Shown here: positions 16,897 through 20,339 of the stretch, piece by piece
Layout: each line of letters starts with the position of its first letter
Numbering within the stretch: position 1 is the stretch's first letter
The notes under the pieces: generated by a model
Databases searched by the model: none
Told to the model about the DNA's origin: nothing
Seen by the model: only the letters and a program-made list of their open reading frames with translations
Assembly: GCF_002694385.1 (NCBI RefSeq)
Contig: NZ_NZMB01000017.1
Span: forward strand, 1-64,000
Reading direction: 5' to 3'
Source: Sneathiella sp.
GTDB taxonomy: Bacteria > Pseudomonadota > Alphaproteobacteria > Sneathiellales > Sneathiellaceae
DNA: 64,000 nucleotides
Made by a program: the position numbers and the translations under genes

Positions 16897-17273
16897 ATAT
16901 GTATCTATCGGTAGCGGTTGGCGGTGCGCTTGGCGCCTGCGCGCGGTATGGCGTCGGGCACATCGTGATGCGTTATTTCGGGCCGGGGTATCCCTATGGC
17001 ACACTGTTCGTCAATATTGTCGGGTCCTTTCTGATGGGCGTGTTGATCGAAATGATCGCCCTTCGCTGGTCCGTTTCGCCGGAACTGCGGGCGCTTTTGG
17101 TGACTGGATTGCTCGGCGGGTTCACGACCTTTTCTGCTTTCTCCCTTGATGTCGCGCTGATGGTGGAGAAAGGCGAGATGCTGGCGGCGGCCCTTTATGT
17201 GCTGCTGAGTGTCGTGTTGTCCATCGCGGGGTTGTTCGCCGGGCTTCATCTGATGCGCATGGTGGTGGCATGA
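16893..17273 (+). CDS. crcB: Fluoride ion channel CrcB
   Basis: CrcB/Fluc (126 aa) is a dual-topology dimeric channel exporting cytoplasmic fluoride. Four hydrophobic segments are visible, with the family motifs GGALGACARYGVG, YPYGTLFVNIVGSFLMG and GLLGGFTTFSAFSLD. The last contains the Phe/Thr residues of the pore. It overlaps rarA by ATGA and rluC by ATGA. No fluoride riboswitch is expected, because the gene is internal to an operon and no leader exists. Confidence 0.95.
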   Translation: MNMYLSVAVGGALGACARYGVGHIVMRYFGPGYPYGTLFVNIVGSFLMGVLIEMIALRWSVSPELRALLVTGLLGGFTTFSAFSLDVALMVEKGEMLAAALYVLLSVVLSIAGLFAGLHLMRMVVA

Positions 17274-18271
17274 GCCGGGTGCAGCATCTTGTGGTGACGG
17301 AGGGGGAAGCCGATCAGCGGCTGGACCGCTGGTTTCGGGCGCATTTTCCGGGTGTCTCTCACGGGCAACTGGAGAAGCTGCTGCGCAAGGGCGATATCCG
17401 GGTGGACAAGAAACGGTCAAAAGCGGGTGACCGGCTGGAAGCCGGGCAAACGGTTCGGGTGCCGCCGCTGCCCGATGATATATATAAGCCTGCCCCTGCG
17501 GGCGCAGGGGGGCGGGAAAAGACGGTGGCGCGCCTCACCGAGGCGGATATTGCAGAGATTCGCGGCATGATCCTGCATATGGATGATGAGGTTATCATTC
17601 TCAACAAGCCCGCGGGTTTGCCGACACAGGGCGGCAGTGGGCAGCCGCGTCATATCGACGGGCTGCTGGAAGGTGTGCGCTTTGACTATCCGGAAAAGCC
17701 GCGGCTGGTGCACCGGCTGGACAAGGATACGTCCGGCGTGCTGGTGATCGGGCGGACGCGGCAGGCGGCGAAACATCTGGCGGAGGCGTTCAAGAAGCGG
17801 ACAACGCGCAAGATATACTGGGCGCTGCTCGCCGGGGTGCCGAAACCGCGAGAGGGGACGATCAGCTATAATCTGACGAAGATTGTTACCGCCAATGGCG
17901 AAAAAGTAGTCGTGGACCGCGAGGGGCAAAAGGCCATTACGGATTTTTCCGTCATTGAAATGGCGGCGCAGAAGGCCTGCTGGGTCGCGTTCAAACCGCT
18001 GACCGGGCGTACACATCAGCTTCGCGTTCATGCGGCGGCACTTGGCACACCCATCGTCGGCGACGGAAAATACGGCGGAACGGAGGCGTTTCTGGACGGG
18101 GTGATCAGCAAGAAGATGCATCTTCATGCGCGGGAAATTACTATTACGCACCCATCTGGCAGGGAAATTACCGTGACCGCGCCGCTGGACCGGCATATGG
18201 CGGAAAGCTGGAAACTGCTCGGTTTTCATGAAAATGACTATGAAGACCCCTTCGCAGAGGTCGGTTTTTAA
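17270..18271 (+). CDS. rluC: RluC/RluA-family 23S rRNA pseudouridine synthase
   Basis: A 333-aa RNA pseudouridine synthase. An S4 RNA-binding domain occupies about residues 12-70 (EADQRLDRWFRAHFPGVSHG), then the catalytic domain has the RluA motif HRLDKDTSGVLVIG with the nucleophile D151. This arrangement fits RluC (U955/2504/2580 in E. coli), but target specificity cannot be read from sequence alone. It is the last gene of the degP–rarA–crcB–rluC overlap chain. Confidence 0.92.
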   Translation: MSRVQHLVVTEGEADQRLDRWFRAHFPGVSHGQLEKLLRKGDIRVDKKRSKAGDRLEAGQTVRVPPLPDDIYKPAPAGAGGREKTVARLTEADIAEIRGMILHMDDEVIILNKPAGLPTQGGSGQPRHIDGLLEGVRFDYPEKPRLVHRLDKDTSGVLVIGRTRQAAKHLAEAFKKRTTRKIYWALLAGVPKPREGTISYNLTKIVTANGEKVVVDREGQKAITDFSVIEMAAQKACWVAFKPLTGRTHQLRVHAAALGTPIVGDGKYGGTEAFLDGVISKKMHLHAREITITHPSGREITVTAPLDRHMAESWKLLGFHENDYEDPFAEVGF

Positions 18272-18656
18272 TATGAAATGGACCGGATTGGGTGCTTTTG
18301 GGCTTGACTAATCGGGCCTAATCCTTAATTTTTCAGCCATGACACATGCTAACCGACTTTTGAGCCTACGACTTATTGGCCCGGCACTCTGATTTAAGTG
18401 CCGGGGCGAATGCTGTCCTTTTCTCAAAATTGTCGGGTAAAAAATGAACGTAACGAAGGCTTCTGGGTCATTCATCTTTGGAAAATTTATCGGTTGGCAG
18501 CAGGAAGAGTTTACAGGCTCCTCCGGGGGGCTCTCTCGACTTCTATGCGGTCGCACGGGTTTACGCAGCGCCCGGCGACCGTATGCAGGCTGCATTGAAC
18601 CGAAGTGAAAAATTTCCGGACAGAAGCTGTCCGACCAGAACAAGAGGATTAAGAAA
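18272..18656 (+). promoter_or_regulatory. 385-nt structured leader of leuA
   Basis: This gap contains no supported gene. A possible promoter is TTGACT (18304-18309) with TAATTT (18326-18331), spacer 16. Three hairpins follow. (a) CCGGCACT/AGTGCCGG (18381-18388 and 18397-18404) may end rluC transcription. (b) A long stem at 18544-18585 has ATGCGGTCGC pairing with GCGACCGTAT plus CGGG/CCCG inside. (c) CGGACA/TGTCCG (18617-18633) ends 12 nt before the AGAGGA ribosome site. Two short frames (from ATG 18444 and TTG 18478) run through it, and the second ends with a TGA overlapping the leuA ATG. The layout suggests translational control of leuA by an RNA structure, possibly coupled to leader translation. 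No run of Leu codons is seen and no riboswitch class was recognised. Confidence 0.5.
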
Positions 18657-20339
18657 ATGACGTTTACCCCCGGAGAAAAATACACGGCTTTTACGCCGAT
18701 CAATCTGCCGGACCGACAATGGCCGTCCAAGGTCATTGAAAAGGCGCCGACCTGGTGCAGCGTGGATTTGCGCGATGGCAACCAGGCGCTGATTGAACCT
18801 ATGGGGCATGAGCGCAAGCTGCGCATGTTCCGCCATCTGGTGAAGCTGGGCTTCAAGGAGATTGAGGTGGGCTTCCCGGCCGCCTCGCAGACGGATTTCG
18901 ATTTTGTCCGCTTCCTGATAGAAGAAAACGAAATTCCTGATGATGTGAAGATCCAGGTGCTGACCCAGTCGCGGGACGAGTTGATCCAGCGAACCTTTGA
19001 CAGCATCAAAGGCGCCAAGCAGGCGATTGTCCATCTTTATAACTCCACCTCCACATTGCAGCGGCGTGTGGTGTTCGAGCAGGGTATGGAAGGGATCAAG
19101 AAAATCGCGACAGACGGGGCGACGCTGGTGCGCAAGCTTGCCGACGAGATGCCCGAAACCCTGGTGCAGATGGAATATTCACCGGAAAGCTTCACCCAGA
19201 CGGAGCTGGAGTATGCCTGCGAGGTGTGCGCCGCCGTCATGGATATCTGGAAGCCGACGGTGGAGAACAAGATCATCATCAACCTGCCGGCGACAGTCGA
19301 GGTGGCGAGCGCGAATATCTATGCGGACCAGATCGAATGGATGCACCGCAATCTGCCGAACCGGGACAAACTGCTGCTCAGCCTGCATCCGCATAACGAC
19401 CGGGGCACGGGCGTTGCGGCGGCGGAATTCGGCATCATGGCGGGTGCGGACCGGGTGGAAGGCACGCTGTTCGGCAACGGGGAGCGAACCGGTAACGTGG
19501 ATGTGGTGACCATTGCCATGAATATGTATACGCAGGGCGTCAATCCGGAGCTGGACTTCAGCGACATCAACGAGGTTGTCCGCACGGTGGAATATTGTAA
19601 CCAGCTGCCCGTGCATCCGCGTCATCCCTATGGCGGCGATCTGGTGTTCACGGCCTTCTCCGGCTCGCATCAGGATGCGATCAAGAAGGGCTTTGCCGCC
19701 ATGAAGAAGACCAATGACCCACTCTGGGCCATTCCCTATCTGCCCATTGATCCCGCGGATCTCGGGCGAAACTATGACGCGGTGATCCGTGTCAACAGCC
19801 AGTCGGGTAAGGGCGGCGTCGCCTATCTGTTGGAGGAAGACTACGGCATTGAACTGCCGCGCCTGTTGCAGATTGAATTCAGCAAGACGGTGCAGGGCGT
19901 AACCGACGAGACAGGTAAGGAACTGTCGTCGGCTATGATCTACGATCTCTTTGAAAAGGAGTATCTGAACGCGGACGGGGATCTTGTATTCGTCAATCAC
20001 CAGTCCGTTGCCGATCCGGATTCCGACGAACGCCGCAGCCTCATCGCAACCGTGCGGGACAAAGGCACGGATGTGAAGCTGGAAGGCGCGGGCACCGGGC
20101 CGATTGATGCTTATATGTCCGCTCTGTCGCGGAAATATAACCTGGACCTCAAGGTCAATGACTATCGCGAACATACGACCGGTTTCGGATCGGATGCGGT
20201 GGCGGTTGCCTATGTTGAAATGCGCGATTCCAGTGGCGAGCCGATTTTTGGCGTCGGCAAGCATGCCAATATCGTGACGGCCTCTCTCAAGGCGATTACG
20301 AGCGCGGTCAACCGTTCAAGAAGCAAGAATAACGGTTAA
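18657..20339 (+). CDS. leuA: 2-isopropylmalate synthase
   Basis: LeuA (560 aa) condenses acetyl-CoA with 2-oxoisovalerate, the first committed step of leucine synthesis. It is the long actinobacterial/proteobacterial type (LeuA2). The TIM barrel starts with WCSVDLRDGNQALIEPM, where R and D are catalytic/metal residues. The metal-binding HPHNDRGTG is in the middle, and VEGTLFGNGERTGNVD is a family signature. The C-terminal regulatory domain (about 430-555) normally binds leucine for feedback inhibition. It is a monocistronic unit: leader in front, terminator behind. Confidence 0.96.
   Translation: MTFTPGEKYTAFTPINLPDRQWPSKVIEKAPTWCSVDLRDGNQALIEPMGHERKLRMFRHLVKLGFKEIEVGFPAASQTDFDFVRFLIEENEIPDDVKIQVLTQSRDELIQRTFDSIKGAKQAIVHLYNSTSTLQRRVVFEQGMEGIKKIATDGATLVRKLADEMPETLVQMEYSPESFTQTELEYACEVCAAVMDIWKPTVENKIIINLPATVEVASANIYADQIEWMHRNLPNRDKLLLSLHPHNDRGTGVAAAEFGIMAGADRVEGTLFGNGERTGNVDVVTIAMNMYTQGVNPELDFSDINEVVRTVEYCNQLPVHPRHPYGGDLVFTAFSGSHQDAIKKGFAAMKKTNDPLWAIPYLPIDPADLGRNYDAVIRVNSQSGKGGVAYLLEEDYGIELPRLLQIEFSKTVQGVTDETGKELSSAMIYDLFEKEYLNADGDLVFVNHQSVADPDSDERRSLIATVRDKGTDVKLEGAGTGPIDAYMSALSRKYNLDLKVNDYREHTTGFGSDAVAVAYVEMRDSSGEPIFGVGKHANIVTASLKAITSAVNRSRSKNNG

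Follow-up and report, generated by a model that had tools for sequence, protein, structure and literature searches.

A putative two-step, ribosome-operated translational attenuator in the leader of leuA in Sneathiella

What occupies the long gap in front of leuA in Sneathiella (Alphaproteobacteria), and how might it control the gene? In the window, which here means the whole 64,000-nt stretch of DNA analysed, a leader of 385 nt (18272–18656) lies between a gene for an RluA-family pseudouridine synthase and leuA. The first-pass annotation had given the gap this same length and had described it as a structured regulatory leader with three hairpins, and both descriptions held. The hairpins were found at the positions given in Table 1, and the RNA 18336–18672 was predicted to fold at −113.7 kcal/mol, compared with −99.7 ± 4.9 kcal/mol for shuffled sequences (z = −2.85); of 100 dinucleotide shuffles, 99 were less stable. 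On the minus strand, positions 18616–18634 formed a terminator-like hairpin followed by AAATTTTTCA, with no evident minus-strand gene at that place.

The reading that we favour, with a probability of roughly two in three, is that the leader would act as a two-step translational attenuator of leuA, operated by ribosomes and sensing leucine shortage. It is based on the comparison of leaders and on folding models. By comparison among relatives, the leader was shown to carry two conserved putative upstream open reading frames (uORF1 and uORF2), each with Leu codons placed before a stem-loop and with a run complementary to the ribosome-binding site (RBS) of the next frame. The first-pass annotation had rightly listed a leader peptide of another type among its options.

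The leuA genes of relatives were located by protein search. Two sets of leaders were compared: 22 from Sneathiella, all long enough to include uORF1, and 86 leuA leaders with module 2 (uORF2) from other alphaproteobacterial genera. S. glossodoripedis and another Sneathiella genome shared the same leader.

Table 1. Features of the leuA leader and of its borders in the window.
Feature	Position	Strand	Remarks
RluA-family pseudouridine synthase gene	17270–18271		Upstream border of the leader
Promoter	18304–18331	+	−35 TTGACT (18304–18309), −10 TAATTT (18326–18331); conserved in Sneathiella leaders
uORF1 (leuL1)	18339–18392	+	MTHANRLLSLRLIGPAL, then stop; 17 codons, 5 of them Leu; conserved in 22/22 Sneathiella
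uORF1 Leu-codon run, predicted anti-RBS of uORF2	18353–18364	+	CCGACTTTTGAG; pairs with 18423–18436
Module 1 anchor	18369–18375	+	CGACTTA (codons Arg-Leu); near-invariant in Sneathiella, frequent class-wide
Hairpin 1	18380–18405	+	18380–18388/18397–18405; folds; overlaps the uORF1 stop codon
Region upstream of uORF2 (its RBS)	18423–18443	+	18423–18436 pairs with the uORF1 Leu run
uORF2 (leuL2)	18444–18608	+	54 codons; conserved motif SSGGLSRL; ATG invariant, frame open in 22/22
Predicted anti-RBS of leuA within uORF2	18521–18536	+	CTCCGGGGG (18521–18529), TCTCT (18532–18536)
Module 2 anchor	18537–18542	+	CGACTT; invariant in 22 Sneathiella
Stem 2	18545–18584	+	18545–18554/18575–18584; class-wide covariation
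Possible pseudoknot helix	18565–18593	+	GCAGC (18565–18569)/GCTGC (18589–18593)
Small hairpin before the leuA Shine-Dalgarno (SD)	18617–18633	+	Fold; similar short hairpins in several relatives
leuA SD	18643–18647	+	AGAGG; from sequence
leuA, 2-isopropylmalate synthase (TIGR00970 type)	18657–20339	+	NCBIfam TIGR00970, 808.6 bits against a cut-off of 697.4

Two upstream frames and their stem-loops

The promoter is sigma-70-like and ends seven bases 5' of ATG 18339; a generic promoter scan of the leader did not report it. TTGACTA and the −10 region were kept across the 22 Sneathiella leaders, and class-wide a TTGAC-like box started 34–40 nt 5' of the first ATG in 69 of 71 leaders. With this spacing, transcription is expected to start at or beside the ATG, so that uORF1 is probably leaderless.

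Both uORF1 and its promoter were present in all 22 Sneathiella leaders. The first-pass annotation had noted no run of Leu codons, which proved mistaken, as five of the 17 codons of this frame are Leu codons and the frame was conserved in every one of these leaders. In the seven codons before the uORF1 anchor, the share of Leu was 45% in Sneathiella and 36% in other genera, compared with 8% in other frames and 5% at the start of leuA. For the seven codons before the uORF2 anchor, the values were 15% in Sneathiella (roughly a single codon of the seven, besides the one in the anchor) and 32% in other genera, against the same 8% and 5%.

A Leu-rich leader peptide with stem-loops is also what classical transcription attenuation would use, where, upon ribosome stalling on the peptide, an antiterminator forms in preference to an intrinsic terminator ahead of leuA. 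The leader of the enterobacterial leu operon, leuL, is built in this way, with a single leader peptide and an intrinsic terminator with a T-run. The Sneathiella leader resembles it in having a Leu-codon leader peptide before leuA and differs from it in having more than a single peptide and no such terminator. The leader sequence and a terminator scan revealed no T-run behind any plus-strand hairpin downstream of the promoter, including the last one, as the first-pass annotation had stated for that hairpin, and none was seen after the stem in the leuA leaders of relatives inspected by eye. Its verdict that this is not a classical leucine attenuator stood as far as the intrinsic terminator is concerned, and failed in overlooking the Leu-codon peptide. 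Since the conserved pairing described below is directed at ribosome-binding sites, we regard classical attenuation as unlikely.

The second frame had been placed differently before. A frame starting at TTG 18478 does exist and does end across the leuA ATG, as the first-pass annotation had described, but it was not conserved, because the offset of the leader frame from that of leuA differs freely from one species to another, and it was rejected as a coupling frame. The conserved second frame starts at ATG 18444 and is a different one. Between this ATG and the CGACTT at 18537, frame 0 was open in 22 of 22 Sneathiella leaders, with stops in the other two frames in 18/22 and 20/22. The distance between ATG and CGACTT was 93, 102, 105, or 108 nt, every value being divisible by three. 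Substitutions in the body of uORF2 were about equally frequent at the three codon positions, and SSGGLSRL was the sole conserved peptide motif, indicating that the frame is kept and the peptide is not. Arrest dependent on the peptide sequence of uORF2 was rejected, as its body is under no amino-acid constraint; its last codons are nevertheless conserved at the nucleotide level.

The same architecture was evident class-wide. When the CTT before the stem was taken as the anchor, an in-frame ATG at least eight codons upstream was found in 95% of the 86 leaders (against 12% and 9% for the two alternative frames), and a frame-0 stop within the stem-loop in 88% (9% and 12%). The anchored search was guided by the motif, and the frame comparisons serve as its internal controls. 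The CTT of the module 2 anchor was invariant in a class alignment of 27 sequences.

Covariation in relatives, a check put forward in the first-pass annotation, was found for stem 2. Class-wide, both partners had changed in 10 of its 13 pairs, the observed value was reached in none of 500 shuffles, and sliding of the stem partner abolished the signal. Hairpin 1, with 9 bp, was paired in 94% of cells in Sneathiella and showed a single double change, i.e., weak covariation. The possible pseudoknot helix was paired in 88.6% of cells in Sneathiella, with double changes in two of five pairs; class-wide, pairing of the loop with the downstream sequence was weakly above swapped controls.

It could be argued that the stem modules are binding sites of a regulatory protein, with the uORFs being secondary. 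The strongly conserved stem and the possible pseudoknot point that way, as does the near-invariance of the CGACTTA nucleotides beyond any coding need. However, the sequence of the stem is free to vary while pairing is retained, and both uORFs have kept their frame, start codon, and Leu codons, which makes a primary protein site improbable. A metabolite-sensing riboswitch before leuA, one of the possibilities raised in the first-pass annotation, might be suggested by the length and structure of the leader and by the possible pseudoknot in module 2. We consider it very improbable, as no Rfam family matched the leader even with the threshold relaxed to E 5, no conserved unpaired pocket was present besides the codons, and the conserved parts are accounted for by the two in-frame uORFs and freely covarying stems.

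The CGACTT anchor itself was conserved at the nucleotide level at both positions (18369–18375 and 18537–18542), even in GC-rich genomes, in which both of its codons, CGA and CTT, are rare, and no cis partner accounts for its invariance. It would be complementary to 16S rRNA around A1492–G1497, which may be a coincidence.

Pairing between Leu runs and the next ribosome-binding site

If a Leu run locks the next RBS, a run and an RBS from the same genome should bind better than ones exchanged between genomes. In this genome-swap comparison, the uORF1 run and the uORF2 RBS yielded −13.4 kcal/mol when matched and −11.1 kcal/mol when swapped (z = −6.2). For the uORF2 run and the leuA RBS, the class-wide values were −12.9 and −11.1 kcal/mol, respectively (z = −5.1), while the crossed pair, the uORF1 run with the leuA RBS, gave z = +0.2. 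With one sequence per family, the signal was z = −5.1 for step 1 (28 families) and z = −3.8 for step 2 (37 families), with crossed pairings at +1.0 and +0.4.

In both modules, a sliding scan gave a sharp peak between −28 and −1 relative to the anchor codon (z = −8.3 and −5.8), and the highest density of pairing fell between −13 and −9 from the start codon, which is the SD position. Controls with reversed runs were slightly off flat (z = −1.3 and −1.7), and a segment displaced upstream from the uORF1 run by 20 nt, which overlaps the run, gave z = −3.6. In Sneathiella alone, the pairing of the uORF2 run with the leuA RBS was weaker, at z = −2.6 uncorrected for relatedness. Column covariation of the uORF1–uORF2 base stem in Sneathiella was no higher than in shuffles; this measure was uninformative, in part through register shifts caused by codon insertions.

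In the window, the proposed lock of step 1 would correspond to the pairing CCGACTTTTGAG:CTCAAAATTGTCGG between the uORF1 run and the uORF2 RBS region. For step 2, a duplex of −23.1 kcal/mol was predicted, in which CTCCGGGGG pairs with leuA codons 4–7, CCCCCGGAG (18667–18675), and TCTCT pairs with the SD AGAGG. The nearly invariant GGGGGGCTCTCTCGACTT could hold the start of leuA in a clamp; in a nested fold model, the clamp state at the leuA start was not strongly favoured.

The effect of a ribosome was modelled as the cost of opening the RBS. With a ribosome on the Leu codons of uORF1, the predicted opening cost of the uORF2 RBS dropped from 10.5 to 5.1 kcal/mol (Sneathiella mean), by more than 1 kcal/mol in 95–100% of the 22 leaders, and from 9.5 to 6.3 kcal/mol in other genera. 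The modelled cost for the leuA RBS in other genera fell from 8.3 to 6.0 kcal/mol with a stalled ribosome. In Sneathiella it was low and changed little (4.4 to 3.0 kcal/mol). When the ribosome was placed on the stop codon of uORF2, the leuA RBS remained closed in the model. For Sneathiella, a first masking model had no effect (it did in Rhizobiales) and a narrower one had a small effect, so sequestration of the leuA SD was rejected as the full account in this genus. Step 2 is weakest in Sneathiella, given that uORF2 there has just two Leu codons near the anchor and the modelled opening of the leuA RBS is small.

Taken as a two-step attenuator, the leader would operate as follows. When leucine is ample, ribosomes would traverse uORF1 and terminate, the leader would refold, and uORF2 and then leuA would be closed. 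When charged tRNA-Leu is scarce, a ribosome would stall in the Leu codons of uORF1 and thereby remove the lock on uORF2. A ribosome entering uORF2 would in turn slow at its Leu codons and remove the lock on leuA, which would then be translated. Since two successive slow events would be required, the off state is predicted to be tight and the response steep. In addition, untranslated leuA mRNA may be lost through Rho.

Rho could also be given the leading part, with the uORFs governing whether a Rho site lying between uORF2 and leuA is exposed, and the state of translation deciding termination. The length of the leader and the absence of an intrinsic terminator would suit such a scheme, and an analogous suggestion exists for actinobacterial cys leaders (PMC1262725). 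However, specific complementarity between a Leu run and the next RBS is not something that it predicts, and we consider Rho-dependent attenuation on its own improbable, although an additive action is possible.

Spread of the modules and comparison with known systems

In the window's genome, the element had a single significant match, located at leuA, and no second significant copy was found before other operons. The two-module leader was common to many other alphaproteobacterial families. Among the 86 leaders, 49 also carried module 1, with an upstream promoter and a Leu-rich uORF in the corresponding position, in most cases with CGACTT as its anchor, and 37 carried module 2 alone, Rhizobiales among them. 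Class-wide, complementarity and modelling point to a region of peptide 1 that locks the RBS of uORF2 and a region of peptide 2 that locks the RBS of the gene, with step 2 being weak in Sneathiella alone.

We lean slightly towards a broader proposal, namely that a class-wide two-stage relay controls leucine biosynthesis in Alphaproteobacteria, in which the same nucleotides of each of two leader peptides in series serve as sensing codons and as anti-RBS for the following frame. Its single-module relatives would be those of Rhizobiales, Actinobacteria, and some beta- and gammaproteobacteria. The open-access literature searched yielded no account of a tandem leuA leader in Alphaproteobacteria; the survey of attenuators in Proteobacteria that Vitreschak et al. 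published in 2004, which lay outside this search, may predict one of the uORFs.

The closest known system, which each module resembles, was the LEU element before actinobacterial leuA (Seliverstov et al. 2005, PMC1262725), described with a uORF with Leu codons, a pseudoknot, and a base stem that joins the Leu run to the leuA SD. The leaders studied here likewise have a uORF with a Leu run upstream of leuA (strong in uORF1, weaker in uORF2 of Sneathiella) and a base stem between the Leu run and the leuA SD (class-wide z = −5.1/−3.8). By eye, both systems also have CTT-A before the stem and a stop codon in or near the loop. In contrast, one uORF was described in Actinobacteria, whereas here, in Proteobacteria, two modules stand in series, the first is predicted to lock uORF2 rather than leuA, and uORF1 is probably leaderless. 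The actinobacterial element was proposed to be the binding site of a regulatory protein, and in Streptomyces the effects of mutations in the leuA leader peptide were inconsistent with classical attenuation (PMC1262725). The Streptomyces result was counted against the relay reading.

A covariance model of module 2 matched a gammaproteobacterial leader at E 1e-6 and a betaproteobacterial one at E 0.002. On actinobacterial leuA leaders, it matched weakly at the right place (E 0.05–0.1), and with these values common descent with the actinobacterial LEU element is plausible and no more. Marginal matches away from leuA, at E 0.003–0.006, were observed at G057:C9:1013788-1013841 (L243) and G268:C249:9375-9430 (L244).

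Tandem peptides are known from ermA, where, in one of two models, stalling on the first peptide (ermAL1) activates the second (ermAL2) and stalling there activates the gene (PMC8274638). The tandem logic proposed here equals that model; the differences are that the inducer of ermA is an antibiotic, whereas here codons for the end product would be sensed and the body of the uORF2 peptide is free to vary. In Sinorhizobium meliloti, the trp attenuator trpL (rnTrpL/peTrpL) has a leaderless leader peptide at the transcription start and also yields a trans-acting sRNA (PMC10117765). It is similar in that an alphaproteobacterium has a leaderless leader peptide in front of a gene for amino-acid biosynthesis, and it differs in having one peptide and a trans-acting sRNA instead of tandem uORFs and RBS locks.

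If the two-step reading is correct, an orphan leader would become a defined switch, the idea of the LEU element would reach from Actinobacteria into Proteobacteria, and an amino-acid case would be added to the leader-peptide relay that has been proposed, and not settled, for ermA. As the separate steps are conserved in many genera and both one- and two-module species exist, the gain from the second step (leakage, steepness, delay) would be directly testable.

Further variants were noted among the leuA leaders. In single-module leaders of Rhizobiales and others (L036, L067, L073, L074, L087, L099, L108, and L111), the uORF ended in ..LLxLxLxxxxR.., and the stop codon lay in the loop of a GC-rich stem. 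Single-module leaders of the Rhizobium type had a loop rich in purines, GAGGAGC, with a complementary GCTCCTC further downstream. LEU-like modules were also noted in beta- and gammaproteobacteria and Actinobacteria (L038, L086, L096, and L037; actinobacterial L043, L050, L056, L057, L089, and L103), in every case before a leuA gene located with the LeuA of the window as query, and the LEU-like element may be more widely spread than the 2005 description from Actinobacteria implies. In a short variant of the leuA leader (L162, L163, L224, L226, and L227), the uORF ended with LRLTRP or LRLMRPWA before the stop codon, running into a hairpin CGCCCTTA..TAAGGGC.
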